From: Brugia malayi
Lineage: Eukaryota > Nematoda > Chromadorea > Rhabditida > Onchocercidae
Direction of reading: 5' to 3'
Assembly: GCF_000002995.4 (NCBI RefSeq)
Contig: NW_025062475.1
Span: 6,142,187 to 6,206,186 of the forward strand
Length of the DNA: 64,000 nucleotides
This document shows, in pieces, positions 24,843 to 58,056 of the stretch (the stretch's first letter is position 1; each line of letters begins with the position of its first letter). Made by a program: the position numbers and the translations under genes. A model generated the notes under the pieces. It was not told the origin of the DNA. It searched no databases and was given only the letters and a program-made list of their open reading frames with translations.

Positions 24843-27800
24843 TCAACTATGGCTCATAAAGGGTGTTATGTGAGCAGTCGGAATTGGAATCGGTGAAACA
24901 ATCTTCTGCTGCAGTTTAGCAGCTGGTGAGGATGCTCTACTGTTGCTACTGCTGTTGTTTAACAATTTGTTGCCGCTACCGTTTGAACTAACAGTTGCTG
25001 GAGGAAGAGGCACTGCTGTGGGATGTTTAAGTTGTTGCTGAGAATTCTTCGAGGAAACATTACTGTTTGGAGGACTATGTGTCGATGTAACTTGATTAGA
25101 TGATGAACAGGACAGTGTTGAACTACTGCTGTGAGAGAGAAGAGGTGGAGTGCTGGTACCGGGAAGTCCAGGAATTGGAGGTGGTTGCATATGCAAGTGA
25201 TGCATGAAATTTGCCAAAGCTGGATTCCTACAAACAATTTATACTCCAAATATTCCTGCAGCCATTGTCCGTGAAGCAACAAATGATTCTACAATTTTTC
25301 TCCTATGATGCTGAAATAAATTGCTACGCAATTTATTAGTTAATTAATTAATAAAACATATATATCTCGACGTAAAGTTTTATGTTTCATTTTGACAAAA
25401 AGCACCTTTATTAAAAGCTTTCACAACACCAGTAATACTTATAGTTCATCATAAAATATTCAACGTAAGAAAGACTATGGGAGAACATTCATTCATCTAC
25501 TAGAAATAATATCCTGTCCTTTAGAGGATGTATATAATTTAAGCTAATCAAATGTACTTTAATAATGTGACTGCTCTGTGCATTACAATTTCAAAAAAAA
25601 AAAAAGAAAAAAAAGACAAAAAGAACCTTAAATAAGGAGTGGCTTCAGGCACAATGGGCATACCACGTCCAGAAAGAATATGTTTAATTGGCTGTGCGGC
25701 AATTTTTGGATCCATAAACAGTGGTGGTGCCTGCATATGTATCGGTGGACTAAAACCAACATGTTTTCCATCCAAAGGGAAAGAGGAAAGCTGAAAATAA
25801 ATTATGAAGTTAATGGTAAAATATAATTTCCTTTAAAAAAAAAAAAAACAAATTACACACCTTATTTCCAATTCCATTTAAACCATAACTTTTCACTAAA
25901 GCTTCATAATTTGTTTTCATTTCCAATGGACGAGGCTGTATTGGTCTCGGATGGCTGATTGTTGTTGCTGTTGCCGCCGTCGTACTTGCCGGAGTAGAAA
26001 TAGTTGTAATCACCGTGGTATTTTCCGTGATTTTCGAAATTGTATGTAATTTACTAAGGGTTTTTTCTTTGTTTGTAACATTCTCAGTTTTCACATTGGA
26101 TGAACTCGATTCTGTTTTAATACCATCGGTGGATATTAGCTTCATAGCTTGCAAGCTACCGTTTTTATTTCCAGGTTTACTACTTGATTCCATAGATTTG
26201 TCATTAGACACGAGTTTAGACGACGATTCAGCAAAACCAGATGCTGCTTTTGCTAACGTCTTCGTCTTGGATCCCTTAGAAATCTTTGTTGAACGACTTG
26301 GAGAAGAATCAATGATTTGTTGTAATCTGAAAAATAAGTTCAGTGTGAAATATACTTCTCTGAAATAAGAAAGATGAAAATATAGTATGTTACAATAACT
26401 TGTCAAAAATTTACTTGTTATCAAAGGATGTCGGCATTAGCTTTGCTTGTTTTGTAGCTGGTGTATCTTCATGGGGAGGTGTTTTTGCAGGAGTTTTTTC
26501 AGTAGACTTTATACGTCCACTGCTAACAGACTTTTTGCTTAAACCCGTGTTTTCAAGTCGCATTAGCGGAGGAGGTCCTTTTGCAAGCGGTGACACACCG
26601 GTCATGCGCTGCACAGGTATTGGAGATGCAACTTGTTTTTTTGTTGGTGCAGTAGACTTCCTCTTCTTCCTGTTAAAAAAATCTGAAGTTGAACGAGAAA
26701 ATGTGAATTATTTATTGTATACGTGAAATACCTTGGAAAAGAAGAAATTCCTGAACGCAAATTCATTATTCCATACTAATTATCTTCTTATTAGTCTAAG
26801 GTAAGGGATAAATTTCAGATTGCAATATTGCTACACGCTTAGAGTAATCAATAGAACTAATCATAAAAATCATCTAAGTGCGCCCAGATATTTCACGACC
26901 AATTTATAGAACAAGAAACTTATTTAAACTAAACTGTATTTGAAAATGGAAACGATAAAGAATCATCTCACCTAGGTGGTGGATGCACCTCGGTAGTAAT
27001 GATAGGCTGGTGATTCGGTCCACCTTCCATCATTGAAGTATTTAGTGAAACCGTTAGTGCTGGTAATTGTACAGGAGTTTCAATTGCAGCTGCAACCGAA
27101 ACGCTTCCCTGTGAAAGAGGTTCTTCAGCAACCAGTTCCGGCATAAATTCCATATCTAACACCGGTGGTTTTTCCTCTTCGAGATGTCGCTGTAATATAG
27201 TAATTTTAAGTATATATGTTTAGAAAAAATTCAGAACTTGTGAGATCAAAACCGGACTTCCAGTGGTACTGGAAAAACGATATACATGATAAAATTTAAA
27301 TCTTTCCAGGTACTTACTTGCAAAGTAAAAAGAACTTTCATAGGTCCCAGACGTCGCCATGAAAACATATAAGCAACATCCTGTAGTGTGCATTGATCAT
27401 CCAACGTCACATTGCAGTCACTGTCGACAAAAAATAATCGATAAGTATCCGAAACCTCCAACTTCGCTTCCAGTAATTTCCGCAATGCACTAATTTTTGT
27501 TGATGCTTGACAACGAAAATACCTGAAAAATTTTATTCCTGAAAACTAATAAAATGCACGATATTAATGTTCACAGTCGTAAAAGGCAACAATTATTAAA
27601 ACAATAATAACAGTCTACTATTAAAAAAAGGAAAAAAAAAGATATGAAGAAAAAGCTGAAAAGGGCAAACATCGAGAAAGTGGTGAGACTACGGAATCTA
27701 TAAATTAAACTTACCTTCAATTTAAAAGGATTAAGGACAGTCGAGAAAATATGAATACCTTTTGAATGTAGTCAACATTGCTTCCTGCTTTTCTAAGCGA

Positions 27801-28986
27801 TCAGCTTCTGCAACTGTAGAAGGTTTGTCATCGAGCAACCTTGATGCATTTACTGCTTCCTTATCATTATTATCTTCATTGGTGTCATTATCTGACACAC
27901 CCGGTGATACGTATTCTAAACATAATGAGACCATTTCATTTGGAGCACACAGTTCTGAGGCGAGTTGCATGAGCTTCTAAAATTTGTAGAATTATTTAAC
28001 GAATTGTTCCCCACTTTCGCTTCATAATGAATTGCAAAAAAGTCAACACAATGCAAAGGTTCATTAACAAAACAATTTCTTTTTTAAAAATCAACTTTTT
28101 TTCCTAACTTTCCTACATAATCAACGATGCCAACAAAAGCTCGCTGGACATGACACAAGGGGTTACATAAATGTAAGAATCACAGAAGCTAGAGAACATC
28201 TTTAATTAATCTTAGATCGGCTTGTGAAATTTCAGTTCCCGCAAACCTTGTCATACCAAGATACCAAAAATTAAAACGTGAAATCTATCCAATCAAACAA
28301 TCCCAAAAAGAAATCACTTTATCAAGAATTGTTGCTTTCTCATCAGGTGAAACGATTCGTTTCTTGAGAAATTCACCACGCTGAAATAGCTCTTGCCAAT
28401 AAACTTCTGGCACCATTTTGTAAACCAATTTCTGGAGTGTATCATCACGTACAAAAGCATCAGAAAGATCTCTGCCGAATGATGCGGCACACTTTGTACA
28501 GTGGTACACTTCGGTTTTTTCGATATTATTCAACAAACAAGCTCGACAGTCTGAAATTACGTAGCATATTGTATTATACAAAATAAATTTTCAGATATTT
28601 TATGAATATCGATGATAAAACTAACTCAGAATTTTAATAAAAAGTACAACATTTAGACCACTAATTCTAGTGTAACTTTAACTTGGAATTAATCTGAGGG
28701 AAAGAAACTGAATTATTAGAACAAAATACATTTTAAAAAAAAGTTGAAAATCTCTATGGAACGGATGTTCGAGCAAACAGAGTAGCGCAACCTATCAATA
28801 TGAAGGAGTAAATGAAAAAGAAAAAATGAGTGAAAACGATAAAATGTGAAAAGTGAAGAGAAATGGGAAAATGAGCAACTAACAGGAGTGAAGACATTCG
28901 GTAAGTGTCACCGCATCAATCAAATACGATTTGCACAACGAACAACATAAATTCTCGTTCAGATCTGCTCCATGAATGTCTTTCAT
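24843..28986 (-). CDS. PCGF: Polycomb group RING finger protein (PCGF; PRC1 subunit)
   Basis: Minus-strand exons: 28986-28884, 28550-28318, 27976-27759, 27522-27318, 27189-26972, 26669-26415, 26326-25861, 25790-25627, 25227-24843; phases agree and give 748 residues. A C3HC4 RING lies near the N-terminus: Cys15, Cys18, Cys31, His33, Cys36, Cys39, Cys52, Cys55, with LTECLHSYCRAC typical of PCGF proteins. A RAWUL (ubiquitin-like) domain starts near residue 125 (MVSLCLEY) and continues at about 183-253 (RYFRCQAS, DVAYMFSWRRLGP), split by an acidic insertion of about 40 residues. The rest (254-748) is low-complexity Ser/Thr/Pro/Gln with basic patches such as RKKRKSTAPTKK, and has no domain I recognise. 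PCGF pairs with a RING1 E3 to ubiquitinate histone H2A; C. elegans MIG-32 is the nearest analogue I know. The start follows a trans-splice-like acceptor by two bases. The gene faces the Polycomb gene. Confidence 0.9.
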
Positions 28987-28996
28987 AACTGAAAAT
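28985..28996 (-). promoter_or_regulatory. Probable spliced-leader acceptor before the PCGF start
   Basis: On the minus strand AATTTTCAG ends at 28989, followed by TT and the ATG at 28986-28984. A near-consensus acceptor two bases before the start codon of a protein that already has a complete RING strongly suggests trans-splicing. Confidence 0.55.
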
Positions 28997-31830
28997 TAAT
29001 TTACAAATCAGTGATTAAAAATTATTTCACATTAGGAGAACGGTTCTAGTTACTAAACGTCGTCGCACAGCAAAACCTAATCATTTGTTCGATACATCAT
29101 ATTCTATGAAAAGATAACTGTTAACCTTGATCACCAGAAAATTCGAGAAAGAGAAAATGGAATAAGACAAAAAAGAAAAAGAAAGTTAACAAATGACTAA
29201 GTTTCTTGGAAGTCTCTGAAATTACTAATTTTTCTTTTTAAATATATTTAAATCACACCTACTTCGTGAAATTTGATGAAATCTTTATGTCGCTGTAGAA
29301 TAATAAGTCAAATAACTATTTTAGCCTTATTTACTTACTACAATTTTTTATGGTTATTACCATACTTTATTAATATTACCTGCTTTGTATGAAATCTGAG
29401 TAACATCTCAAGCGAGAATTTCACATCTGACACTGCCGTATCATTCAAGCTCATATGATACTCACCGAAGGCAGTGTCAATTTTACATCTTCATATAATC
29501 GATCTTTAAGATGCAGAATGTATGAGTAATCTAAACCAAAGTTCTAGTATTCGAAACACAAGTCTCAAACCTGGAATAATAATAGGGATCGGAAACAAAC
29601 AGCAAATGCACATTTCAGTTCAGTTCCAAATATATGGATGGCGTTCTTCTCTTGTAAAACAGTTAATCAGAAAGAGGTGAGGCAACAGAAAGTTTATGAT
29701 ATAATGTTTAATAATTACATTTTTTCCTTCATCGGTTGCAAAATTTGCAAAAACCTTCCGCTTTATAAAAACTGATACTAAATGCAAGACAATAGTGCAT
29801 TGGAAAATTTCCGTAGAAGATAATAAATCAAACAGAAAATATATTACTTGCTCTTTGAACTGTTTCCTTCTTACATCCAATAATTAAATTTTTCTTACTA
29901 AACTTCAACAAAAAATCCAAACCAATCAAATGTTAACAAACAGATAAAGACAGGAATATACGTTATAACTGGAAATATTGCTGCAGAAAATAGCTTTTCA
30001 GCGTTATTGTTACTTTTCTAAATGAAATCGCCTTACCATGACACTCATGAAAAGGAAAGGGAAAGCTTCACTGAATTTGAAGGATATCAAATGCTTTTCT
30101 TCTTAACTTTATAAGAAAGCTCACATAGAAAAAATGACTATGTAATGATCAATGATTACGCGACCTGAGACCCAAACAGCACTCTCGACCAGCCAACAGT
30201 CATCGACCGATTAGCAAATTAAAATTTATGTCAGTGCAAAACGACATTTTCCATTGATAGCCAAGCGCACTTGGCAATTTACAGTTGAAATATTCATTCG
30301 CCTTCTAACTAATCAATAATCGCCTCCATAAGATTCAAAAAGGCTATAGCAAGTAATTAGGACAAAACGTATTGTGACAAGAAGGCAACCTTAGCAGTCG
30401 TTAAGCAGATAACCTATGTGTAATACCTGAAGCACACGTCCTAAGCCTTATTTATTAGGAAGAATGATTTCAATTTTACCAGGAAAAATGTTCTACTCAC
30501 TGTAATCGAATTATTCATTGTAACAGAAAATGAAAAGGTTCCTGTCTGACATAATGAATAAAAATGTGTGTGACAATCCCTAAGATGACAGTGTATCTGA
30601 AATATTGCACTAATTATGAGCTTAAACTTCGACAAGATTAGTGAAAAGCGAACTTGACGATAATGATAAGAACACTTCTCAGATTATAAACTAATAATGA
30701 TATCAAAGCAAAATGCATCATAGAGATTTTTCAGCAACGGAAGATGAGCGACGATGGAACTAATAACTGGAAAGTTAAATTTAAATGACAAACAAAAATT
30801 CAACATTACTAGTTGGATCGTTGACACCTCTTCAAATTTTGCAGATTCCTCATCAATGTTTGCTAAGAGCAGATGCAGAAAATGAGCACATGCATTTAAG
30901 GGAGTGTATAATTAACACGTGTTATAAATTTCCTATACTAAAATCTAAAGAGAAGAAACTGTGTATAGTTTTCAAAGCACAAATTATACGTAAACTATAC
31001 ACTGTGTAAGTTTTAGGCTTGTAGAGTAAATCAAACTAGGATAAGCCTTAAATAAGCAAGTGGAGTCAGAAATAACCTTCGGAAAATACAAATGAAGGAA
31101 TGGATTAAGGAAATGAGTCAAAAATTGAGTGGAATTATCATTGTATCAGTGATGGCGCAAATGTACTTTAACTAGGTTATACATGTCGTTCAACACAAGC
31201 TTAAGATATTAACTTGTAACTATCAGCAAGCTCGCTTCAATCCGCAGCAGCTAATTGAAATTAATAGATAGGATTTTAATTGTGACAATCAAACAGCAAA
31301 ATTTTCATTCATGTGCAAACATGCTTTGACACTTCTCAGCTATAAGTACTATGACGGGGTGAACAGATCAAATATCAAAGCACAAAATTACAGAAATAGC
31401 AATAGAAATGTTAGAAATGAAGTCCAAAACTGTTATAAAGCAACAAAATTATTTAAACAGTTATTTTTCTCATTCAATTTGATGTGATTTCTATGGTTTT
31501 GAAGACAAATGCAACAGTTTTTGATTGTTCGTTACACTAAAGCAACCTAATCCTTAAAGAAATCGTGGACATCGTACTACCATTTACAGTTTTCACTAAC
31601 CTTTAATTACTCAATTACATGATCAATTTAACTTGTGAAAAATCTCAATGTTCTCCCTTCCATGAAACTTTCACAGTGTTACTTCACCTATTTTATTTAG
31701 GAAAGACGGTTCGATCATTCATTCATCACATATTGAAATCAGCCGAAAATGAAAGGATACTCTATATTGCACCGCATCATACGCTTATTTAGTATTGCAT
31801 TGGTATTATCAAATCAGCAGGACAACTTAA
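28997..31830. other. Upstream flank of PCGF, no exons seen
   Basis: AT-rich sequence with only chance open frames. It is the likely promoter side of the PCGF gene. The only notable structure is the inverted repeat at 29428-29479. Confidence 0.45.
29428..29479. repeat. Compact two-part inverted repeat (hairpin-forming)
   Basis: TGACACTGCC (29428-29437) and GTATCAT (29438-29444) are matched by ATGATAC (29455-29461) and GGCAGTGTCA (29470-29479). The 17 paired bases are perfect, with a 10-base loop and one 8-base bulge on the right side. It lies about 440 bases upstream of the PCGF start. It could be a small RNA hairpin, a protein-binding palindrome or chance. Confidence 0.7.
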
Positions 31831-32020
31831 AAGATGAAATATGACCTGAAAATAGGAGGACAAGGGCTCTGGCTGTAGCCTAACACTGAGATGATAACGA
31901 GTGGCTGATAGGACTGAGGAGTGGAGTAAAGCCCTGGAGGGAATGCTATAGCCAAATAAGAGAACAGACGCATAAGTGATGGATCAGTTCTGCTCGACCT
32001 GAAGAGAATGAGAGAATTGC

Positions 32021-32044
32021 GTGTGTGTGTGTGTGTGTGTGTGT
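32021..32044. repeat. (GT)12 microsatellite
   Basis: Twelve uninterrupted GT units within the GC-richer island. Confidence 0.9.
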
Positions 32045-33380
32045 TGTCATTCAGTACAATGTGCACCCCTCTCCGCTGCCCCCACGCGCCCAACGGACCT
32101 ATATCGTCAAATCTGTCCGTTGCTGTTTAAGCTGCCCAGTAGTTGCCTGCAAGACACTATTTCGGGAACAAATAACCCACACAAATAATCATACTGCAAA
32201 CGAATCGGGATGACAACGAAAAAACACGCCATCACCACATGAAGAGAAAGAAGACCAAAGATTTCTGATGCTTTTGGAAGGGAAACTACCACATACATAC
32301 ATACACGCAGAAAGGAAAGAAGAGGATAGGAGGGCAAGGAAAGAAGCGGGGGCAGCGGGGATGCAGGGATTGCACCTGATTTCACTTTGACAGTGCTGCT
32401 GCAAGAGAGGATGAAGAATGGCCGTAGCGTCCTGCAGCTGCAGCAACGAAAAGCTAACACGTGGTGAAAGATGATGCAGGTGGGTGGGTAAGACTGAGGG
32501 AAGAAAGGAAGGACTTATGGTAAGTGGGGCGGGAGGGGCGACAGACCCCGAAGAATCGTGCAATAGACCGGTGTGTTACGTTACCTTGCAGTACAGACAC
32601 CCATGCACTCGTCCTAAACATGGAGAGTTGAGAGGAGGAGGGGCGAATCAATGGGGAGAGACTGAGAGTACAAGATGAGAGGGCCTTTTCAAAAATTAGA
32701 AATTTGTGAAAATCTGTTGGGAGTACAAAGAGGAAGAAGGATAGAATGTACGCAGTGGAGCGTATGAAAAAAGAGCCAAGTGAGAAAGTTTTTTAGTGTA
32801 GAAGAATGGACAGATAGCATAACGCCATACTTATCCTTGGGTAATTATGCCCACCTGCACTCCGGTAAATACTCCATCTTTTCCTATCCTGATTTTCCCA
32901 ACCATTCATAATTCTATATATTTGCAATAAACGACAAAAGGAACCGAACACTTCTCATTTTAACTCCTTTACAAAATGCGATTCCCATCTCTTCCATTCA
33001 ATTTCAGTGAGAATACCCACCGTATGCTACTCTCCGGAAAACAAGTTTGAAGAATATAGTAGCTAAATGAGTGATTTCTGGAAAAGTGCAATGAATACTA
33101 AAGATGGATTGTCAGCAGTTTGTGATAGTTTTTGTCTTTATCTAGTTCTAGTGTCACCTTTCCTAAAAGCGTGTGTCAGCCATTTCCCACAAACATATTC
33201 TTAACGCGTAGGTTAGTTATGTGAAGTGACATCTCAATTCGTCAGTGAAACAAATTTAAGTTAACGAAGGGAATACGAGGTCTTTCGAGCTTATTTCCCC
33301 TAGGCCTACCCATCTACTCATTCATTTACCCACTTATTTACCCCACATCAAAATGCCATTCACTATAGTAATAGCATAGC

Positions 33381-33409
33381 ACCAGCACCAGCAACAACAG
33401 CAGCAGCAA

Positions 33410-33440
<31 letters not shown>

Positions 33441-33455
33441 AACAACAACAACAAC
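33381..33455. repeat. CAG/CAA trinucleotide repeat
   Basis: About 75 bases of imperfect CAG and CAA units, plus two ACC-type units at the left end. On the plus strand it would encode polyglutamine or polyasparagine, on the minus strand leucine runs (seen in the open frame 33338-33598). No flanking exon supports translation, so it is listed as a simple repeat. Confidence 0.85.
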
Positions 33456-33841
33456 GCTATACCATGCCATGGCGTAGAGGCGGGGCATACAACCACGCCT
33501 TCCTCTCCCTTCCCTAACTCCCAACTCACGCAGCCAATCACAATACGTCTCCCTTCTCCCATACTATAGTCTGCAGACAACGATACACTGTAGCTCAAAC
33601 CATTGAGTCCTCCTCTATCTATCGATTGATGCTTATCTATTTCTCTATGTACGTCTCTCTATCTATGTATGCTACGTATGTGTCTGTGTCTGTATCAAAG
33701 CAAGCGGACACCACGTCTGTCCGTTTCGGTTAGAAATGCATGTCAGTCTGCATTTTGATGTGTGTGTGCAGCACTCATGGGGCCTTATCTAGAGAATATG
33801 TTCACCACTTCATCCTCCATAATATGCCTGTCCGATTGGCC

Positions 33842-33863
33842 CACATACACACACACACACACG
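33842..33863. repeat. CA microsatellite
   Basis: A short run of CA units with one TA interruption, in the GC-richer island. Confidence 0.8.
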
Positions 33864-36101
33864 CATACAGATATATGTTTGTGCATTTATAGATATGTAC
33901 ACGTAACACTCACGTACAGACGTAAACACGAACACGCGCTCACTACATGTATTAGTGAGCCATGTGCTATGGTTTACAGTAATGTGACATATGAGCAAGT
34001 AAGGCCAGAAGAGTAGGTAAACAGCATTTTTCGACATGTGCAGTGAAGGAATTCGATTCACGGAATTTCCAGAGGGATCACGACGAGACCGGAATGGGGA
34101 ATGGTTACAACGGGCTTTCGTGCGGGCAAAATAGTGGGTAATCTGCGATTTCGGGCAGAGCGAGTCGAGCAAGAAATCAACGACACATTCCTTTCCACCC
34201 CACCAAATGAATCCGTCCCTTCGACACTGTATGCACAAGCCTGCCTGTCTCTCTGCATGTCTGTGTGTGTCTGCGAATGTGTGTAGTGTCTATGCATGTA
34301 TGTATTGTGTATGTGCAAATGGAGCACGGAGCTCGTTGGGGGCGTCGACTAACAAGGAACGGCACTACCCGCAATGCCTGCCCATCCATTGTTCGTCTTC
34401 GACACATGATCACTCTCCTTCTCTGGTAGCTCTTAGCATGCCCATCCTCTCTCGCTAAGTTGAAAAATACATTTAAATGAATTTAGGATGAGGATTCTGC
34501 ACAGGCATGTGTCCTCGTTGCTAAGAAGACGTCCTTCTTTTTTCCTTTTTTCTCTCAACCTACCCGAGATCTGGGTATCTCCTGTCGAGAATATCTACCA
34601 CAAACAATCCTCTTCATCCACACCAACACACAAGCGTACACACAAACATACACACACTCATTGACCCACATTCTACCCCCTTGCACTCATTCACTCGTTA
34701 TCGGCCGAATACGGTAGCATTCGATTACCACTAATGCTAGGTTACTTGTGCTCTAAGCACAATTTCAGTGACGACAATAATTAGTAGCACCTCTATGCGA
34801 CAGCAGAAATGAAACAAGGAGATGGGAAGTATTCAGGAAAGCAAACTTGCAAGTGGACAGCACTCCCACGGCAGGGGAGTGGAAGAATGCACGGCAGCGA
34901 ATGTTTAGATAATAGCGCAAGTGCAGCGTGGACCAACCATTCTAGCAATCTACCGACAGTCGTCCTTTGTTGCTGATGTATCTGTCAACGTGACCTTCCA
35001 ACACTAACAGTTTTTGGTTGGAAATAGAAACATTTCGGGCTAACGTCGAAATTCATTTTGATTAAAATATTAAAAAATTTACTTAAACTGTACTTTGACT
35101 ATTTATCTTAAGTAGATCAAACGATTGATCTTGTCATCACTTATATCAAATCGTAATTTCTTTCTGAGCATAAAAATAATCTATCAATCCGAATAGAGTC
35201 ACAATGGACTAACACTACTTGCTGTTACTGACTTCTAAAAATAATTATCATTGCGATACTGCTTTATGAAACAGATGGAATATTGAAAAGCGGATTAAGG
35301 ACAAGAGGAAGTAGTAACATAAGTGTCTCTGCTATACAGAGATATTTATCTTAAATGAACTTTCATTGTCATCAACTATAAGTGAGCGATCAACGATTTC
35401 TCCCGTTGATTTACAAAACCAAATTTCAGAAACTTTTCCAGTGATTATGTCGTAAGAGGTACATCATTTTTCTGGCTTTTGGTTAGGATTTCCATTTCAA
35501 ATCATTATGAAAATCGAAGAATTAATTTATTCATTGAATATTTATTAGTGGGAAGAAATTTGCTGTTTAACCATTTTTTGGAATCGGACAAAAGATTGCT
35601 TCAAAACTCCTATCCTACGCCACTTCACAATATTTCTAAAAAGATTCCCAAAACTGATGGCCACAATTTTACAACATGATATTACCATCTTCCAATAAAA
35701 GACTTATTTAGTTCATTTCGTATGTCAAAACAAAATGCGTTTGGAAATTTTGACAAAAAGAAGGGAAATAAATGGATTAATGTATCTAGTCACTGAATGT
35801 CTAATAAAACTAATTTCACACTTGATCATGCATTAAGTGGCCATTGTACGGGAAATTGTTGGCATCAGAAAATATGAGGAAGCACTGACATTTCGGTAGA
35901 TTGATTTTGTTACTTTATCTTACAAAAACGAATAAATTTAAAAGAAAAGTGCTAAATTTTTTTTTTTTTTTTTTTTATTGAGTATTTAGAATATTTCACA
36001 CTATGATAACCTAAAATGGGAAGAAATATTTGTGTTTTTCTGCCTCAATATTTTTAAAAAGGCGATAAATACACGCTGCAAGCATTAACTCTTGAAATTC
36101 C

Positions 36102-36128
36102 TTTTTTTTTTTTTTAAAAAAAAAAAAA
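36102..36128. repeat. Poly-T/poly-A palindromic junction
   Basis: Fourteen T followed directly by thirteen A, then GAAA repeats. Perfectly self-complementary; likely a simple-sequence product. Confidence 0.85.
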
Positions 36129-39100: not shown

Positions 39101-39261
39101 CATTTTCATGAGGACAGTAAATGAGGACTTTTCCAGGCCTTTCCGCCTCATTTCAAACATTCAAAGAGCCATCCTAGTAATCTCTTCACCACCATACTGC
39201 AAGCAGTGAAGGAGAGCGGCTGTTCAAGTGCTACTTGCAGGCAGTTAACAAACGGGCTGAT

Positions 39262-39375
39262 TACTACTACTTTTACTACTACTGCTATTACTACTACTAC
39301 TACTGCTATTACTACTACTTCTACTACTATACTATTACTACTACTACTACTACTGCTACTACTACGACTACTACC
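39262..39375. repeat. (TAC)n trinucleotide repeat
   Basis: About 110 bases of imperfect TAC/ACT units with TGC, TTC and TAT interruptions. Open frames across it on both strands are products of the repeat. Confidence 0.9.
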
Positions 39376-39546
39376 GCTGCAATTACAACTGCAGTGAATG
39401 CTGGCATGCAACGACTCACTGCATTACAGAGCTTCTCCACCTCTCTACTTCTCCATCTCTCCGCACTACTTAACATATCTGCCATCCTTATCGATACATT
39501 TGTACACACATATAAATGTATATGTGTACATTTATAACGAAGCCTG

Positions 39547-39586
39547 ACACACACACATATATATATGTACACACACACACACACAC
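39547..39586. repeat. AC/AT compound microsatellite
   Basis: CA units, then TA units, then CA units. Confidence 0.85.
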
Positions 39587-42500: not shown

Positions 42501-43044
42501 CCCAATTGCTGGATATGATCTTTTTTGTGTCAGTACTGTGAGAAATGCGGAATTGTCCAATGTCGTTGTTAATGAATAGCCATTCCTTCATTTATCCATC
42601 GACAAACTGAGTGACACGTCTCTCCTAGATGGGTCAACAGTGAAGATATCATCTTTCCTTTGAATATTATTTAATCATGTGGCAATCAGATGAATGCAAA
42701 TTCTAACTTTCTGTAACTTTAATTGCAAAATAGTTCCGTACGTGAAAGTTAATTTCTCTTTTAACTAATTATTTCTTAAGAAACTGTTTCAGTGAGTGTG
42801 CGCAACAGCATTTTTTTTTTATTTTTTATTTTTGAAATTGTGACGAATTTTTATTATTTACCAACAAATCTTTATTATCAAATTTCTGTTATGCAAATTA
42901 TCGAAAGTTCAATTTAATAATTTTTTTAATTAAAATATTGTTAAATTATGCTAAATTTGAACAGATAGTACATCAACTAATCGTTTTATTTCAATGTTTC
43001 ATTGTGATGCAGAGCACTGACAAGTAATCAGCATATCATATTAT

Positions 43045-43074
43045 GATCTGATCTGATCTGATCTGATCTGATCT
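43045..43074. repeat. (GATCT)6 pentanucleotide repeat
   Basis: Six perfect GATCT units, with GATC recurring every five bases. Intergenic. Confidence 0.92.
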
Positions 43075-43189
43075 AATCCGACAAATAAATAAATGTGTTT
43101 CCTTTAAGTGAATGTGTTAAGATGTCTGAATTTATGCTCTGCAATCATTCAAAATCATAATGACGATGCCCTCGCCGCATAGATATGCA

Positions 43190-43300
43190 GACACAGAACA
43201 GATACAGACATAAACAGACAGAAGCGTAGACATGCACACATACATGCATACGGACACACACACATACGCAGACATGCACACACATACACGCACTTACACC
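43190..43300. repeat. Degenerate ACAGAC/ACACAC-rich repeat
   Basis: A stretch of ACA-rich units (gacacaga, cacacata, gacatgcaca), low-complexity and on both sides of a short CA run. Confidence 0.7.
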
Positions 43301-46009
43301 CCTGCAAAGTCTCCTCACTATATCTTTTAAATGTGACGTTGAAAATTTGTCGCAGTATACTAGGACTGTTATAGAGCACTGCGATTTGGTTTCTCTGGCT
43401 AATGAGGAATAATTACATCTCAGTGTTAGACTAAGACCAGTGCACATCCATCAAATATTTGAACTTTTTATCTCAACTAGATTGTTTAAGAAGACATTTC
43501 AAAATTGATGGTTGAGAGTTTTTCAAATCTTAGTAGTACCAAAAAAGAAAATCCAATAACAAGGAATTTTGAGAGTTTGAAATCATTTCAACTTACATGC
43601 TAAACTTATAGTATTATTAATAATCATTTCAGTGTAAATTTCCATTTTATGTGCATCTTTTTCCTCACTATATAACGTGAAATGAATCTTAGAAAGACAA
43701 TATCTGTATAATTTGGAGGCAAACTATTTGTAAACTATTGCAGTGTGAAATTTTAGGATGAGTAGCTAATGATGATGATTAAATGTTATAATGTGGATAC
43801 TGTATTACATTATTTTTTTAATTCATAATTAGCTCTTCTCCCTCCAGACAATTCCTTGATAGAATCTTGCCGAGTGAATGGGAATTGGCTTATGAAAATG
43901 CCTGCAGTTGGTGATGATGAAATTAGCAGGAATAAGTGATGGAAATGTCATTTATAAAACAAAATTAATCATATGCTTACTAGAAAGTCAAAGTAGCAAC
44001 AAGTTGGTATGACTGCATCATCGCTTCATTTCGATCCTGTATTCCGCTGAACTTTTATTTGTCCAACTGTCTCTATAAATGTTCATCTATTACCAGTATA
44101 TTAGTGATACATGTAAGCAACAAGGTAAACAAATGGTGGAATTAAAAAAAAAATTAACTCATCAATGATTAAGCAAAGTTTTTGTCTTAATTCAATTGAA
44201 TTCAAGAATGTGTTTAATCATCCCGATCAATAAAGCAATTGGGCACATTAAAATTTACTTTATTACTTGAAAAAATGAAAAGGATGAGGTTGTCACTAAC
44301 ATTTTGTAACAGATCAAAATTTTTACTGCAAGATGCAAAATTACTGAAAAGACACAAAACATTTTTTAAAAATTCTAGCTTACTTAAATCTCACTTTTGT
44401 ACTTTCTTAAATCCTACCTTTAAATATGCTGAGAAAGATCTCGCAACCATGTCATTTATATGAACATGATCTTTTATTGATTCGATGAAAGGTTAACCGG
44501 CTCAAAGATAGTGAAAGCAGCATGATTTCTTCATCACATGCTTGTCCCTAAGTACTCACAATGCATTTGTCCTGATATGGAAACGTTATGGAACGCTGGA
44601 AGTTTTTTGGAATTATTTATGCTTTACTCATAGGCCTATATTGATTGAAACCTGTTGTAAAACGGATAGCTTTTGAAAGGCGATAAGAGTTAAATAAGCT
44701 GCAAATATTTTCATACTAACTTAAAATTTCATTACGGGTTTGTCATTTTTTCAGTTCATGTTTTGATAAAATCACTGATTGGCTATTTTCGAAAAAGAAA
44801 TTGCTGAAAGGCTGACCGTTAACTGTTTGTCATATAATTGGCTTTCACATTGTCACTTGTCAGTAATTCCAATGTTACTGCTAAAAAGGTTTTTTTTTTT
44901 TTACTGATAAGGTTATTGAATGAGATTAAATGAGACACACCCTATTTTTACACAAATACTAGTCCGATGGTCTGATAATTACTACTGCTTCAATGCTTCA
45001 GTTAGACTGAATTTGAAAGGTCTATGAAAGTTAATTCTAAAGTATGAATCGAAATTCATTCAACCATATTTAACTAATGTGTCGAAACTCTTTCAATGGC
45101 TGACAAAAGTTACTGAGAATAATAAGAGAAACACATTTCATCTTCCTTACAGTAATGGGAAGTGTTATGCGGTCCCTTCCCTCCTGCATTACGGCCTGTT
45201 CCTCTTCCTCAGCACCTCAACATTGCGCCTTCTCATCTCTCCTCACGCGGGGTCAGCCGAACGAATTTTGAATATGTGCGGTGAGTTCAACAAATGATGA
45301 ATGGCAAAAGAATGAAGTAAATGACATTCCAGTCTCAGTGGGGTGCTCTTCTCTTCTCGGAGACAAACAGACAGACAGAGAGACCATTACTGTACAGTAC
45401 GTGAAGTCGCGCATCCTGGAGGATTGCCCTACCGATTGATTGGTTTACTCGACTGCACTTTGAAACCAATTCATCACTCTTCCATTTCTGATAGAGTAGT
45501 TGAAATTATGAAAACGACTTACAAAGTCATTTAAAACGAATTGGGAATGGGCATAAATTGTGTCGTTCTCTTCTTGTTTCTTTCGACTCACAAACATAAT
45601 TTATGTTTACCTGCAAATTGCATGAGAGCATGTATTGTATCTTTTGATGCTTACTGTGCTCTTTGATGGCGGTACAGGACTGAACTGAAGTATTGCATAC
45701 TACGAGTGAATTAATGATGACAAAAGAAATTGAACCTCTCTAATATTTCAGATCGACCTTCCCCTCTTCTGTAATTTTGTCTCTCTTCTCGGCAGGTGAG
45801 CTGATAAATAACCTATCGCTACTACTCGACCAACGATGATATCATTTTCGCAAGCAAATATAAACGCATTCAGAAGTAACTTTCCACTAATTGGTTGTAA
45901 GTACAACGCAGATGAGTTAAATTATGTTTACTTTAAAAAAAAGTGCAAGAAGAATTAAACAAATACAGCTTGAGCTATTAAATTTTCTGTTCCATTTGAT
46001 TATTTAGAA

Positions 46010-46080
46010 GCGGAAGGAGAAAAACAGAAAAGAGAAAGAAAGGTGAAGAGAGAGGGAGAGTGAGAGGGAAAGAAAGAGAA
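46010..46080. repeat. Purine-only GA-rich tract
   Basis: About 70 bases almost wholly A and G (GAAAGA, GAGAGG), a low-complexity polypurine tract capable of unusual DNA structure. Confidence 0.85.
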
Positions 46081-47070
46081 TAATTAAATGTTGAGGGAAT
46101 GCTGATCTCCAAACATTCCAATGAATTCTCAACTGTCCATTCTTCATTATTCTTTCTAGAAAATTTCTAATATGCATTGATTACTAAATGATTTGGAGTG
46201 ATAGAATATCGACAGATTTCTGTAGCGAAATCTCTATTACAGAACCGGTTATTTATCAAGGGAAAAGGGTAAACAACAAAACCGAACACTGTATACTATT
46301 TCAATATTGTTCTAAATTTAAGAGAAACTGCCGCTTCCTCCTTATCTTTTTTAAAAAAAAAAACAGGCAACTTGTGTTCCTAGCTAAAAACTAGTATGAT
46401 TTAAAAGAAATCTAAAATGAATTCCGATCTTAAGCCTTTATTAGCAGATCCCTTATTAGCGTAATCATAGCATGCACTGATAATTCATTTACATTTTTGG
46501 TAACATTACTTTTCAATCAACAATTACAGCTGCAATATAAATTGTATATTAGCTTAACTTCTCAAGCATATTTCAAACTTTCTTATCAAAACCGAAATGT
46601 CTTCGTTGTAGAGTTCATCGCAGCACTTTCACCGCACTATTTCCGATTGCGGTTTTTTTGAAGATTTATTTTCGATTTCTTTGAAAAGTTTCTCAAATAA
46701 AAATCATCAAAATAGTATCACGATGTGACATTTAATTTGGATATTCAAAATCTAATTAGCTCAAGCACTGTATTGTTAATTGATAATTGGCTTTATTTTA
46801 CACTTTATTTTTGATTGTTTATTGCAACGGAAATAATAAAAGGATCTGTAAATGTTTTTTTTTTAATAAGAGACAACATGCTATTTGTACTTACAACAAA
46901 ATGAGTATCACAAACACTGCAGTCGTTGCCGATGTAAGGTGCAACTGCAAATCGATTAATTCTGATGTTTTTTCTAGGTCAAATTTCAAGAAATCCTAGA
47001 AACTTCATTATCAATTTATATCTATTATTAGCAATATTATATTTTTTAAGTTGAGGCTTGTTGATCTTCC

Positions 47071-47098
47071 TATATATATATATATATATATGTATATA
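47071..47098. repeat. (TA)n microsatellite
   Basis: About 28 bases of TA units with one TG change. Confidence 0.9.
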
Positions 47099-48500
47099 AT
47101 GAAATAAGAAGTTTGTATACAATACTTATCACCGCAACATAAGGAGGAGAGCCATCCATCAGAAGTAATGAAACTAAGTCGAAAGCAATCGTAAGAAATG
47201 CGACAAATCTGTTGACTCCTGCTCTATCACTCATAGATTGATCAAATCGAAAAGATGAAAAACTGGAAACAGATGGAACCAATTATTTGCTTCTAAGTTT
47301 GCTGCAATTTTTACTTTATCACTTAATTTATCTTTTCCGCTTCTTCAATACATTACCATTTAAAGTTGATAAATTAACTGATATGACCATAAAGATGAAT
47401 CATTTGCGGTTTCGCGGGAGTTTCTTTCCTTGCAGTATTAGCCATTCAATCTATTACTTTGACTAATTCTGTACTTTAATTTAGATGGAAAGATAATGTT
47501 CAAGTTTATTGTCACTGTTTTTTATCACTTCATAGCTGTAATTTCTGCGTAGGATGAAAGCAGCGTTTTTCGGTATTTGCTGATTTCTGCTCAGATGGTG
47601 ATGGTAATACTTCGATACGAGCTTGTGATTTTCTAATAACTAATAACAGTTCTTATTTTGTCTTGAAATAGTAGGAATGGATAAATTGATTTGATTAATG
47701 ATTAAATCGAAATTAAAAGAAATGACAAGGATAAAATGAATAATGAGTTGAGGATGGTTTGAGAAAGTCATAACCATCAATCATAGCATCCTCCCATGTT
47801 GATCTTCTCTGCTGTACTGTTTTTTCTTCTTCTTTCTTCTGTTTATTCTTGCATTCTTGAGTAGGTTTCAATTTTTTTACTCACTCTTTTCCGACAATTT
47901 ATAATTTTTGCTACATCAGTTATGAATGTTTATCATTTTCTTAATAATAATACAAGACGAAATCATTCCGCCCCCAAAACTTTGAAGTGATCAACAAGTC
48001 GATTACCTTTATCACAATCTTAGAGCTGTTCTGTTGATTTACTTTGACTTATATTGCAGATATCACACCTGTTCATTAGCAATGAAAAGATGCTTCAGGT
48101 TAATTGTATAATTAATTAGTACTTCTGAAAATAAACTTCCTCTTTATTGCAAGCGGTTCATTAACCAACATGATGACAATGTCAGTAATAACGAAATTAA
48201 TAATTCATACTAATAGATCATATTCTCTTGCTGAATTAGTGCAATGGAATAGACAGTTACAAATATCGTTCTAAACATTCTGATAACATCTTATAATAGA
48301 CATTTATCTGAAATACTGATGTCAGAATCAGTAGAGTTGTACTCAATACTGCGAGTACTGGCCGCCAATCTCGAGCACATTTCAAAAAAACACTGCAGAG
48401 AAAGTAGAAATCGCTATTATAGAAGGACTGATGAGAGAAGCGGTTCACAGACAGCTGATGAAAAACAATGAACCTCAAGAAAATCAGGGAAGTGTCAAAT

Positions 48501-49080
48501 AAAAAGAGCACACTTTGGCACAGGTAACATTTATTAGTGATAGGATACGATCGAGTGAGGAAGCGCAGTGAGTGTTCGAAAGTGGTAGTTTCGAGAAACG
48601 AAGGCTAATAAACAGTACCGAAATAGCGTTGACCTTTGAGGTGTATGTGCAACATTTATGATATGGCGGGGTCGTCCATCTATATATGGCTGAGAACAGA
48701 AGTGCAAGGCGATGGCGCCACTGTCGCTATGGAAATTAAGTGGTGTCACTATTTGGTATGAATTTTGAAAATTGAGTGGAAGGCAAAAAGCCTTGGTCAT
48801 GTAAAGACTAACAGGTATCCTCTACTTCGTCATACAGGCGGTCATTTATGCAAATTGACTGATTTATGGGAGTGGAAATGTCCTAATGCATTCCTGGTCC
48901 TGAAATGAGAGTCAGTGTCCACTGATTCAGGCCGCTCATTCGGAAGTACAAAGCACAGTAATCTCTGTGTGGTCACGATAATAATAAGAAGGGATAAGCA
49001 ATAATTAGCGGTTGGAATGAATGTTGATTAGGCAGTGGTCATTATTCACTTCTATCTCATCATTTCAACTGTAGGGAAGA
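48501..49080. promoter_or_regulatory. GC-richer patch, possible regulatory element
   Basis: About 550 bases noticeably less AT-rich than the surroundings and without a credible reading frame. It contains TGACCTTTGAGGTG (about 48630), resembling nuclear-receptor half-sites, and three copies of ATGG within 75 bases, two of them ATGGC: TATGGCGGGG, GATGGCGCCAC and CTATGGAAA. It lies 2.3-2.8 kb upstream of the Polycomb start. Regulatory function is inferred from composition and position only. Confidence 0.25.
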
Positions 49081-51325
49081 GGAGGGATTCATCTATTTCT
49101 CCTCCCTTACCTTTTCATTCAATGCAACAGATGTTCTGCGCATTGTGTCACCAAGTACTATGCTGTATTTCTATTTAATTAGCCGTAAATATGTCACTAT
49201 TACCATGATTACTACACTAATCATCACTTTGTTATTTAAAGATAAATTTGGAAAGTGTGTATAAACTACAAATATCTCAGTTATAATTTCTTCATTATTT
49301 GCACCTTTTGGCGTCCATAATTTTTTCAGTTAGAGTTGAATAAGTGCTCTTAATGCTAATTGCTCTTAATGATAAAACAGAGATACTGCAAATATATGAA
49401 ATATAGAACTCACTAAACGAATATCCTTCTGCAATTCCGGATTACGGGAGATTCTGACGGATAAAAAACACTTTGCTTTATTTTGCAAACGACCTGATGG
49501 AATAAGATGAGAAGGAGCAATGCTTGTCGATAATGTCTTTCATTTAATAGTTCTAACAGAATGAATGTCTTTCATCTAATAGTTCAACATTAAGGCAGCA
49601 GCTGTAGGACAGGAAATTATGAATATTTCATTTTTTTGAAGTTTGAAGCGCAGAGTAATCACAGAGTAAAAATCCGTCTCCAGATACTAATTCATTTTGT
49701 TTAGAGAAGTGACCGAGTAGAACGTCTACAACCGATAAGAAATCCGACCGAAGCCACAACCACACGACACACGCACCTATGCCTTGCTCAATTCCAAAAT
49801 ACTTCTCCGTTTTCACAACGATCCAATTTCACGACTGAAAACAACATTATCTCGCTGGAGGACGACCTGGTTCAATCAATTCTTCAGTGGAGTTGTGACT
49901 CGGTTCTTGATTAGCTTGTTTGTGAGTAGAGTGGTTGCCTTGTGGGTTGGCGGAATTTGTCTCCGATAAGTGAAGAAAGTTTTGACTATTAAGATGATTT
50001 TAGGGAATGTCATGGTTTTATTCGTTTCTGTCATCTCTCTTCAAGAAGCTTCCATAATTTTTTCCCAAGTCGAATTACTGATAAATATCGTCAGAAAGAA
50101 AATGTGTGTCTTGTAAGTTAATTTGCGATAGATGTTGGAAGTTGAGAGCACGGTGTACATGTAGACCAATTATAAATGTCCTCCATGTCACTTCTTCAGA
50201 GAATAGCACGAATAGGGTTAATCACTGGTCACAACCATAAAAGCTTCAGGTTCATGTTGCAATTATGATTCATTAATTAAGGAATTCATGTAGAGTTTTT
50301 CACGTACAGTTCTCATTCTCAATTTTCTGATTATCTGTTTCTCTTCATTCTTGAATTATCTTCCTTCGATTATTATGTGTTAGACGGTTTCTGTTATGTC
50401 TACCAAACACTCAGAAGTTCGTAAAACAGTTTAAAAGCGAAAACATATAAGCCCTTTTGAAATCTTCACTTCATTCTTATTCCAAACACCTTAATTATCG
50501 GCGTGTAGAAATGATTTCATTTAGAGTGTAGAGAATACTTTAGGGGATGATTTCTCTCAGATTGGATGAATCAAGAATGTAGTGAATGATATGTAACAAA
50601 TGCTAAATAGCTGTCAGCCAGCAAGTGGTATTTATATTATGAATTGATAGAAGTATACGCGTAACTATGGAAATAGAAAAACGCGATTAGAAACGCGTCT
50701 TCTTATTTCTTTATAAGATCATTGTGTGAGTGTGTTGTACTCTTTGGCTGTGACGATTGCCATTTGATAATCAGTGGTTGCATATACTTTCTTGCACAGT
50801 TTTCTCTTACCAGTTGAAATCTGATATGTCGCTTCACTCTTCTGCAATTCAATTTCAAATTTTGATCAACTCCACCTACTTCTCGCACTATTACGGTTTA
50901 AATAGAAATAAATGGGATGGCTGTTATTGATGTTTAGCACTTCGTTTTTCTTGATTACTGATGCATTGTAATTCAAAGCTCATTTTACTATTGTGAAATT
51001 ATAGTTGTGCTATTATGGGAAGTATAGAGGCTTTACTGCGTTGTTCTATTGTCAAACTAGTTGCTGCTTAATTAAAAATAGTGATGCTAAGCTTGATATT
51101 GCATTATGCTCTGTTGCAAGAAATAAGGGAGTTGATTGAGAAATTGATGCAGAAATTCATTTTGTGTGATTTGCCAAAAGCTCGCATAAAATATTATCTG
51201 TTCTGTTTATTTTCTCTGCAGGCTATATTCAAAGTTTTTTATTCACAATCGTTTTTTATGCGGTTTGAAATTACTAATCATTTGTTTGTTATGGATGCAG
51301 CAACTTACTTGAAGTGTGCAATTAT
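49081..51325. other. Proximal upstream region of the Polycomb gene
   Basis: AT-rich with no convincing exon. The open frame 51081-51335 is not in frame with the Polycomb start and shows no family signal. It probably holds the Polycomb promoter and outron. Confidence 0.45.
49531..49590. repeat. Imperfect two-copy tandem repeat, about 33-base unit
   Basis: TAATGTCTTTCATTTAATAG at 49531 recurs as GAATGTCTTTCATCTAATAG from 49564, each followed by TTC and an AACA/AACAT end. Confidence 0.75.
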
Positions 51326-51338
51326 TTCAGCATAAATT
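51324..51338 (+). promoter_or_regulatory. Probable spliced-leader acceptor before the Polycomb start
   Basis: ATTATTTCAG ends at 51330 and the ATG follows at 51339 after CATAAATT. The encoded protein begins nine residues before the chromodomain core, so no upstream coding exon is needed. Confidence 0.55.
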
Positions 51339-54300
51339 ATGGATCCATTAGACGGACAGGACGTCTATGCAGCGGAAAAAATTCTGAAGTCTCGAACAAG
51401 GAAAGTAAGTGAATGTTTTTTTTGAACATTGTAATGTCTCTAAGCTTACTTTGGCTGTCAGTGTGATCTTACGAATCGATCGTGATAATGGAAATCTAAT
51501 AAAAACGCGTATTGCTACTGACACTTTAGAATTTAGCTTTAAATGACTATTTAAATGACTTTAAATGAAATAGTCCCATTTTGCTGTTTTCTATTTCTGC
51601 GAGATTTGTGACCTATGACTATAAAAAAATATTTAACAAAAATGCACTCGTTGATAAGCCGAATAATAAAGCATACTATGCACAAGGTGATCATGAATTG
51701 ATATAAAATGTTTTTGTAAATTGTTGGGCGAATTATTTTAAATTTGCAATACAGAAAATCCCTGCTGCATTTTTATTGCAAAAATATAAACCCAGTAATT
51801 ATTTCGTAGTGGCTTTTTTATGAAACACTCAAAAAAATATTTTTTCTAATCTTCCAATATGTTTTAATCAACATTATCAAACTAATCATAAAACTCGAAT
51901 TTGCACCCAAATTTTTACCCTAAAAAAAAAGGAAAACGTACGTTAGGATTTATAAAGACATCTTCATAGAATAATATTTAAAATGATGAATCATTTTTGA
52001 GAAACGAATCATGTCATGATCTCTGTTAAATTTCATATGCTGATTTTTCAGTAATCGTATTGGATTCTAATAAATCGTTCAGATTACACGCTTTCTGAGA
52101 TCATTGCAGCTAGTTTATTTTCGTTGAAACTGAGCTTATTTAGCGCTTCATTGAGCTACTGGCGTAGTTTTTAAAAGCTGATATTTGACTAGTAACATTA
52201 TGATTGAAAATTGAATCGTTGAAATTATTAAAAAATGTGCTGATAACTTTTTCTTCAAGTTTTGGTTTTAAAGGGGAAAACAGAATATCTGATCAAATGG
52301 AAAGGATGGTCAAACCAGTAAGTTGCCTTTGCTTGTTAATTTCTCACTACTTAGATATCAGCATTCGTATATCATTTTTCACTCGTACATATTCAATTGA
52401 ATTTTGTCGTAAAATAATTCAATTTATTATTTTATGATTAATCAATCCTTAGGCATAACACATGGGAACCGTCAAGTAATATCTTGAACGAAAACCTGTT
52501 CACGGAATCAGGTTTTTCCATACCAAGCGATTTCAAAGGTGGGACTCGGAAGGGAAACAGGAGGTCAAATCGTGGAAGGAAGCGAAAAGTAAAAGAAATT
52601 TCAGATTCCGATGATTCAGATGACGATAATCACAGTTATGATGAAGGTGCTAGTGAAAGTCATTCAGAAGGTATATTCCATAACTGTTTACTAGTATTTT
52701 CAAGATTATGTAATTTGGTTGTTCCTCTTTTCCAAATAATTAAAATACTACTAGTTGTTTCTTTTAAGGCTCAGAAGTTTCACCAAAGTCAAGTATTCAT
52801 TCAAGGCTCGGAACACCAATACCAAGTGGACCTGTTGTAGAAAGCAGTAAATCCTCAAAAACGCCTCGAAAACGAGGCCCAAAAAGTAAAAAGATTTTAA
52901 GCGATGTACCGATGACTTCAATCCCAACTCCAAAAGTCAATGAAGTGAAGCATAATGATGACAGTAAGTTAGACCCGAAAGAAGAAAAGCCGGATGAAGA
53001 ACAAGTAGCTGAAGATTCTCTGGAGATGGAAGCTGAGAAGGAGCTGGATAAGAAAGAGGAAGCGGAATTTAGGGTTCGTTCAAAATCGTGAATAATCTCA
53101 CTTGAGATTTGTAGTGCAAATAATAACTGAAGAACGAATTAAAAACTCTTCATCGTATGTCCCACAAATAATCAGGAATTTGATCTTTTTTCTTCATTAA
53201 GGCGTCCATTTTTCTTTTTTGAATTTTGCACTTTGTTTTCTCCTTCACGTTTTTCTTTTCTTGTTTTATTATTACCCAGGAACTTTGTTTCTATTGCAGA
53301 TTCTACCGTCGGAGACGATGTTGAATTTACCAGGTGCTGACAAAGTTAGGAAGGATTCTGCATTATCGGAAGCTGAAATATTCAGGACCATTAAAGATGA
53401 TGAAAGCAAATTGGTTGAAGAGAAAAACGCAAAAAGAGTTGAGGTAATCCAGTTAATTGTTCATATAAAATTTGTTGAGGTGATAGTAGGAGTTGTAAGA
53501 AAATAAAATAAGTTGCAATTCGTATTTATCCACTTGTCCATTGAAGACATAATGCTAATAAGTTGAATAAACTGCTGAAAATTCTCAAAGATGTATTTAA
53601 AATTTTGAAGTTGATTAGGATGAAGCAAGAGCTGTTGCTTTTTTATAGATAAAACTGAAGAAACCCGAAGTTTTCGAAGGTCGTTCTGGATCAGTACAAG
53701 TCGTTTCTAATGGACAAGGTAAATTCTGCTATAATTGAAGTTTATCATTCCTCATTCATATTAAGATTAATAGTGCAAAATGAGGATTTACTTATTGTCC
53801 ATATATTTTTTTGTTTTTTATGTGAAATCTACCTACACATGGTTATTTAGTTTTTGATTGGGTGGGTGGAAGTCAAGTTGAACTGTAAAATTTGTCTCAT
53901 TATGAAGCAGATCACAGAGAGCTTCATTTTTCAGAGCAGGTAATTAATAGGTTGGCATTTGTTGTTGAAGGGACATCTGGTTTGTCTCGTAGTTCAGAGC
54001 AGTTACAGTTACACGACTATGGGGACAGTGATGAGAGACGGATTCGCGTAATAGCTGATCAGTTAAAAAATGAAACTGTTAGTTTCCAAATCTGATTGAT
54101 ACATCTTTTATATGTTAATTAATGTTTAGTACTTGTCTTCCTTGTTGTTGTTTTTAAGCAATTGCTAAACATGATCATTTTGCTACTTGTGTTTCAAGGA
54201 TTTCAGTTATAATCCTTCTCCTATAGACTTTCGAAAGTGTGATATAAGTCGCATCCGTACAATCTATTTTCAGTTATAATGGATTAAAACCATGCTGAAG

Positions 54301-54430
54301 TTTTGCTGTGTTACAGAAAATTTGGACTGATGCTAACAATACGCGTTTCGAAAGTTTTCAATACAATGGTTCTCACACAATCACCGAAGTAACAGTCAAT
54401 CAGCATACTGTCCCAATTATTGAACTGTAA
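51339..54430 (+). CDS. Pc: Polycomb/CBX protein: chromodomain plus C-terminal C-box (PRC1 subunit)
   Basis: Exons: 51339-51404, 52274-52317, 52453-52670, 52769-53073, 53300-53443, 53649-53718, 53911-54077, 54317-54430; phases agree and give 375 residues. The chromodomain (residues 9-58) begins VYAAEKILKSRTRK and continues [20 protein letters not shown], very close to Drosophila Pc and vertebrate CBX2/4/6/7/8. The three aromatic cage residues for trimethyl-lysine are present: Tyr10, Trp31, Trp34. The middle has an acidic SDSDDSDDD run and two basic AT-hook-like patches (RGRKRKVK, RKRGPKSKK). The last 16 residues, ITEVTVNQHTVPIIEL, match the spacing of the Polycomb C-box, the segment that binds the RING1 RAWUL domain. 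The predicted role is recognition of H3K27me3 and recruitment of PRC1. HP1 is unlikely: there is no chromoshadow domain. The 44-base second exon has a weak acceptor (TTTTAAAG) but is needed to complete the chromodomain. Confidence 0.9.
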
Positions 54431-57400: not shown

Positions 57401-58056
57401 AAAAATCAAAGGCTAGCAGTATTAAGTGTTTGTATTCATGTTGGAACTAGATGGGTCTTATTACTTTTTGTATTTTTGAGTTTTAAATAGGTAAGACTTG
57501 GTTAGCTTAAGTGATTCTTGCTTCTTAGATTTTACGATACTTTTTTACAGACTGACGTTCTCCAACCCACACATTCTCCATTTTACTTACTTCAATTATT
57601 TAGTTTAATCCATTTTCAAATGGCCAAGAAATAAAAACAGTAGATCCTTGATTTTATAACAAGAATTTTTACAATGAGCAAGATTGATTATTATTACACA
57701 ATGGGAAACTGATGTCCAGTGCATTATGCTCCCGATCATAATTACAATTGTTATCTCTATTTACACTATGACTATCCTTGTTATCATCACATTGTGATAA
57801 TTTGTATATTTAGAAGAATGTGATCGGCATTGGAAGTGATGATTATGACGAACAGGATGTTTAAAGGTCAGAGTTCATCCTCCAATGCGATTTGTTTCTA
57901 ATCAAAGAGGTATGTACGATGTAGACGACGAAAATAATTTTAGGGAGCAAATAGAATAACGTCATTCTTGTGTGCTGCAAACATTACTTTACAACTTAAG
58001 GTTTTTTATTACTTTCAATATCTGAGTTAATGTTAATGCTTTAATTTTATGTTTAG
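54431..58056. other. Intergenic region after the Polycomb gene
   Basis: This region holds the Polycomb 3' UTR and the upstream part of the next plus-strand gene. No exon was assigned. Possible small coding pieces around 57830-58000 were examined, but their phases do not join the exon at 58057. The stretch 55130-56300 is slightly GC-richer and shows only chance open frames. Confidence 0.4.

Follow-up and report, generated by a model that had tools for sequence, protein, structure and literature searches.

Does a nematode still encode the parts of a canonical Polycomb repressive complex 1 (PRC1), and in particular a Polycomb (Pc) protein equipped to dock onto RING1? This question is raised by a 64,000-nucleotide stretch of Brugia malayi DNA, hereafter the window, which is part of contig C135 (14,701,151 bases) of the 87-Mb genome, and which contains a PCGF gene on the minus strand (24843-28986) and a Pc/CBX gene on the plus strand (51339-54430). 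The view of 2008, as given in the accessible part of one article, was that nematodes have no PRC1 homologues (PMC2447854). CEC-1 of Caenorhabditis elegans had long been regarded as a possible Pc homologue; an analysis of 2009 found its PcR box poor and doubted true homology, according to the excerpts of it available to us (PMC2784810). A first-pass annotation made from the letters of the window had proposed the two genes, and it placed them correctly; positions 24843 and 54430 are the final bases of their respective stop codons. B. malayi is a nematode in which both a PCGF and a Pc/CBX gene are present. We consider it probable (roughly 0.7) that the two products belong to the core of a canonical PRC1, in which the CBX protein would dock onto RING1 through a C-box.

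The chromodomain of the plus-strand gene is encoded by its first three exons, with the start codon and the first part in exon 1 (51339-51404), the middle (EYLIKWKGW) in exon 2 (52274-52317), and the end (NTWEPSSNIL), followed by a basic stretch, in exon 3 (52453-52670); all three are supported by the reading frame, and the third by Pfam as well. It reaches 56.4 bits with the Pfam Chromo model (cut-off 25.1), and a search of the PDB retrieved CBX2, CBX8, Pc, CBX6, CBX7 and CBX4, in this order, all ahead of any HP1. This ranking, the database search and the first Pfam run used a 329-amino-acid model of the protein as query. The first-pass annotation had named a grouping with HP1 or CEC proteins as what would speak against a CBX identity, and in a tree of 43 chromodomains the 32 Pc/CBX rows, of which 15 are from nematodes, lie without exception on one side of a branch supported at 97/97, apart from HP1 and MPP8; with 49 columns, the tree resolves only a small number of forks. 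The idea that the gene encodes an HP1-type protein draws on the relatedness of the chromodomains and on the approximately unbiased test, which was indecisive: joining the window protein to the HP1 clade is 17 log units worse and yet was left unrejected (p 0.109, with few columns to decide). It is nevertheless strongly disfavoured, and in our estimate very improbable, considering the PDB ranking and the tree split, the existence in B. malayi of a separate HP1-like chromodomain (L002) that falls away from the Pc/CBX rows, and the fact that Pfam reported no chromo shadow domain in the protein. The gene already bears names in public databases ('Protein cec-1, putative' in B. malayi, 'BMA-CEC-1' and 'Chromobox protein' in D. 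immitis), so that it cannot be called new. In the available part of a 2020 review, CEC-1 is described as binding H3K27me2/3 in vitro, with CBX2 first among its human relatives, while the CEC proteins diverge outside the chromodomain and the membership of any of them in a PRC1-like complex was at that time an open question (PMC7649781). This makes the contrast of CEC with CBX a false choice, as the Brugia gene is named cec-1 and the chromodomain of CEC-1 is itself CBX2-like. On this reading, the plus-strand gene encodes the Polycomb/CBX member of the CEC-1 lineage in B. malayi.

The C-box is the motif by which Pc and CBX proteins dock onto RING1 in flies and mammals. We built a matrix from the 27 distinct 16-mers found in the 143 of 176 fetched proteins that matched a C-box pattern, the other 33 being dropped; all 176 were taken as non-nematode, although many came without an organism name. 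When all 44,357 windows in the six frames of the 64 kb are scored with this matrix, the Brugia C-box comes first at 20.5 bits, with a runner-up at 13.1 bits. The top-scoring core, TITEVTVNQHTVPIIE (54377-54424, plus strand), consists of the 16 residues preceding the final residue of a protein that ends in ...VPIIEL. Judged from its sequence, the predicted C-box is real but shortened, and the Pc/CBX identity of the gene is strengthened by it.

The motif extends well beyond Brugia. In a sample of 43 nematode proteins, 35 assigned by name and 8 by judgement, a threshold of 14 bits is passed by 22 of the former and 2 of the latter. In 20 of 22 nematode proteins the non-nematode matrix scores highest at the extreme C-terminus (14.1-22.3 bits), and in 19 of these 20 the score exceeds the best of 300 shuffles, the remaining one being P0106 (18.3 bits, for a shuffle maximum of 18.8). 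Conversely, a matrix derived from nematode tails only finds the pattern-defined C-box in all 143 non-nematode proteins. Of the 24 proteins that pass, 21 end one residue beyond the core and so lack the G-F-F tail seen in flies and vertebrates; the models of D. immitis (P0004, P0012) and Setaria (P0007) continue 56-94 residues beyond it, extensions that are probably model errors. At E values up to 10, the best being 0.0019, the Pfam CBX7_C family matches 10 of 21 nematode proteins, and of seven proteins inspected singly it matches the C-terminal tail in four (P0136, P0153, P0093 and P0143), all under the cut-off of 22.2 bits. Since this family reaches tails of clades IV and V and misses those of Brugia, P0001 and P0015, the former resemble the standard C-box more closely than clade III tails do. 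Aligned by eye, the tails TITDVTANDTTLTFIE of Heterodera, IITDVTLNGITTTFIE of M. incognita, TITDVTVNGQTCQFIE of strongylids and MVTDVTVNGKTCQIVE of Heterorhabditis connect the Brugia C-box with standard ones such as FITDVTVNLETVTIRE. An alignment of nematode sequences only, used as search seed, reached clades IV and V, whereas a seed that included insect Pc returned mostly insects; none of the best 120 of the 561 matches to the nematode-only alignment belongs to Caenorhabditis by name. The C-box is retained in B. pahangi, Wuchereria and two Onchocerca species, among others, and stands at the C-terminus of many, though not all, relatives in what we take to be clades III, IV and V from their genera. 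These data speak for the retention of a putative RING1-docking tail in clades III and IV and in the strongylids of clade V.

The partner gene on the minus strand has nine exons with GT/AG borders and a single open frame of 748 amino acids. Exon 1 (28884-28986) carries the start codon and the first half of a RING (CSLC...CLHS), and exon 2 (28318-28550) the second half together with the linker conserved in PCGF proteins (DDTLQKLVYKMVP), as read from the splice borders and frame of the former, the frame of the latter and Pfam for both, with PDB matches for the second. The N-terminal C3HC4 RING has all eight ligands, its pattern spanning residues 15-55, and scores 31.2 bits with zf-C3HC4 (cut-off 21). 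After exon 3 (27759-27976), exon 4 (27318-27522) encodes the ubiquitin-like RAWUL domain (PF16207), at 37.8 bits in the protein (cut-off 33.5) and 42.5 bits in the genome scan, so that the RING and RAWUL domains announced for this strand both pass the Pfam cut-offs. Exon 5 (26972-27189) precedes a low-complexity tail in exons 6 (26415-26669), 7 (25861-26326) and 8 (25627-25790), and exon 9 (24843-25227) carries the stop codon; exon 3 and exons 5 to 9 were delimited by splice borders and frame. Residues 1-278 of the 748 were submitted to the PDB, where the closest solved relative is BMI-1 (E 1.1e-28) across RING, linker and RAWUL, and the BMI-1 RAWUL structures 5fr6 and 2na1 are matched as well. 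When only the RING is considered, BMI-1 at 61.3 bits and PCGF5 at 60.9 bits are level, which leaves assignment to the BMI-1/Psc type (PCGF2/4-Psc class) probable rather than proven. RING, conserved linker and RAWUL are shared with BMI-1/PCGF4, Psc and MIG-32, the last compared by description only. From residue 256 onwards, the 493-residue tail is net positive (53 K+R for 30 D+E) and recalls the long disordered C-terminal region of Psc as described in the accessible part of one article (PMC10821450). MIG-32 is the PCGF orthologue of C. elegans, according to the part available of another (PMC9126393).

The genome also encodes a RING1 orthologue (L030, C138:5150201-5150594), which is 79% identical over its main RING exon and scores 194 bits against human RING2 in the RING region. 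From these parts we infer the following arrangement. The chromodomain of the CBX protein would read H3K27me3, the shortened C-box at its extreme C-terminus would dock it onto RING1, and the RING of the PCGF would pair with that of RING1. The three proteins would then make up a canonical PRC1 core, which would bring H2A ubiquitination and compaction to H3K27me3-marked chromatin. Among other Polycomb components, a SAM-like match resembling the domain of Polyhomeotic lies on C136 (37.8 bits); an FCS finger stays below its cut-off (22.1 bits for 26.6) and is also matched in 2 of 14 control genomes. A SUZ12 candidate consists of two adjacent pieces of the VEFS box (L021 and L022, C139:3844905-3845278; 20.2 and 18.3 bits, under the cut-off), and SUZ12 has been reported in B. 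malayi, as stated in the accessible part of one study (PMC9253717).

Apart from the tree test and the RING tie mentioned above, several results weigh against a PRC1 that contains the CBX protein. Even at an E value of 10, CBX7_C is silent in the Brugia protein, and it is likewise silent in P0001 and P0015 (three of the seven proteins inspected singly), and its genome scan gave no match at the CBX locus. Searching the PDB with the Brugia tail alone retrieved no CBX protein; the two matches were both to LRP4 and unrelated. Among the domains put forward earlier, Chromo, zf-C3HC4 and RAWUL are above their cut-offs and the C-box of the plus-strand gene was recovered in shortened form, but not as a CBX7_C match. 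The G-F-F end found in fly and vertebrate C-boxes, a feature that is common and that we do not treat as defining, is missing from the tail. In the matrix test, P0147 (3.7 bits) and P0142 (13.7 bits) stay below their shuffle maxima of 9.4 and 14.4 bits; the first fails outright and the second is doubtful. At the 14-bit threshold, no C-box was found in 13 of the 35 named and 6 of the 8 judgement-assigned nematode proteins, many of which have another last exon or are cut. Finally, the C-terminal domain of RING1, which is the docking surface, is represented by candidate exons picked by eye, for which the PDB gave no match and Pfam no RAWUL.

These points lend themselves to another explanation, which excludes the first: the CBX protein would be a Pc-derived reader of H3K27 methylation acting outside PRC1, its tail a relic, as supposed for CEC-1, and the worm PRC1 would be a variant complex with RYBP. 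The shortness of the tail and its missing G-F-F end, the existence of models and transcripts without a C-box, and the searches that did not find the RING1 docking domain all agree with it, as does the doubt over CEC-1 homology in the excerpted 2009 analysis (PMC2784810). So do two components found in the genome, a RYBP/YAF2 motif (L033, C139:17388395-17388484) that scores 29.1 bits, above the Pfam cut-off, and a second PCGF (L018 and L032, C139:17071800-17074500) whose RING is closest to PCGF5 (116.9 bits) and whose RAWUL is weak (21.5 bits). Against it stands the conservation of T-[DE]-[VI]-T and a final E at the C-terminus in all three clades, III, IV and V, which would hardly be expected of a relic when the region between chromodomain and tail has in large part diverged. 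We hold this alternative to be possible but doubtful.

The C-box is encoded by a separate last exon. Exon 8 (54317-54430) holds a conserved ESFQYNGSH block, the C-box and the stop codon. Upstream of it, exon 4 (52769-53073) ends in an unusual donor, GTTCGT, and gives a joined frame that matches the public B. malayi protein P0002; exons 5 (53300-53443) and 6 (53649-53718) were delimited by frame, and the product of exon 7 (53935-54077) aligns in filarids, Thelazia and Parascaris. The complete gene has eight exons and encodes 367 amino acids; the 329-amino-acid model, which had another exon 7, was replaced once homologues gave the exon now used. Residues 1-354 are identical to P0002, in which a donor located inside the C-box joins an exon near 55118 (window 54317-55240), so that 42 other residues replace the last 13, which contain most of the C-box, and the motif is gone. 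The public annotation of B. malayi thereby hides the motif. If the donor of exon 7 is read through (window 54070-54100), the protein would acquire another end, NETVSFQI and a stop, devoid of C-box. Comparable ETV... tails terminate several tylenchid proteins and one Acrobeloides protein; such ends without a C-box are found in P0105, P0112, P0118, P0130, P0131 and P0155, among which P0131 is a cluster from short contigs that represents 90 of them. A role of the read-through as a regulated switch is conjecture. More broadly, we tentatively entertain a scenario in which the chromadorean ancestor had a canonical PRC1 with a true Pc, kept in filarids, tylenchids and strongylids and eroded in CEC-1, and in which the splicing of a C-box lying in its own exon could switch the reader in or out of PRC1; we regard it as speculative.

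Does the proximity of the two genes have a meaning of its own? They had been described as lying head to head, and the orientation is indeed divergent, but 22,352 bp (28987-51338) lie between the start codons at 28986 and 51339. A functional arrangement, in which a shared regulatory region would co-express two subunits of one complex, finds some comfort in this orientation and in the content of the interval: of its 173 open reading frames (ORFs) of at least 45 codons, the 105 with at least 55 codons were scanned with Pfam, the 68 shorter ones (45-54 codons) lying outside the scan, and no convincing protein domain was found, although a domainless gene would escape such a search. Ten families were matched at E values of 0.004-0.05, in one ORF each, where about 5 are expected by chance. 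This arrangement is opposed by the distance itself and by the presence of TTTCAG within 10 nt upstream of both start codons, which would suit the acceptor site of a spliced leader as well as a further exon upstream, so that the promoters are not located. In C. elegans, moreover, mig-32 and cec-1 presumably lie on different chromosomes (IV and III). We judge a functional linkage to be quite improbable, and the neighbourhood is most likely coincidental. The interval also includes a GC-rich island (31900-34900; 0.44 at 32001-34000 compared with about 0.32-0.34 around it) with CA and CAG/CAA repeats, in which no gene was found. The B. malayi genome has at least 50 copies of SL1 RNA genes, and an Rfam scan across the whole window returned zero matches. 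In the flanks (1-24842 and 54431-64000), 97 ORFs with 55 codons or more were scanned and include pieces of a carbonic anhydrase (3 ORFs), a protein kinase (3) and a globin (1).

Set beside Polycomb and CBX2, 4, 6, 7 and 8, the nematode proteins are alike in their N-terminal chromodomain of the Pc class, low-complexity middle and C-terminal C-box core, and differ from them by the missing G-F-F tail and, in the tails inspected, by an [FY]xY[NH] block ahead of the box. CEC-1, which shares its database name with the B. malayi and D. immitis genes and has a CBX2-like chromodomain (PMC7649781), differs by its poor PcR box (PMC2784810), a comparison made by description only and from partial texts. 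In the open-access literature, seen in excerpts and with preprints and subscription journals outside its scope, we found no report of a C-box in a filarial, tylenchid or strongylid CBX protein.

The locus had initially been framed as bearing on when nematodes lost PRC1. The co-occurrence of Pc and PCGF in a nematode stands, and the loss is better recast as retention in several lineages: the fate of the RING1-docking tail is more at issue than that of Pc itself. The C-box in nematode relatives bears on the doubt expressed in 2009 over CEC-1 as a true Pc homologue. C. elegans commonly serves as the model for Polycomb biology in nematodes, for which it may be atypical, and if it is true that a Pc with a functional C-box persisted in other nematodes, then the oddity belongs to the Caenorhabditis lineage.

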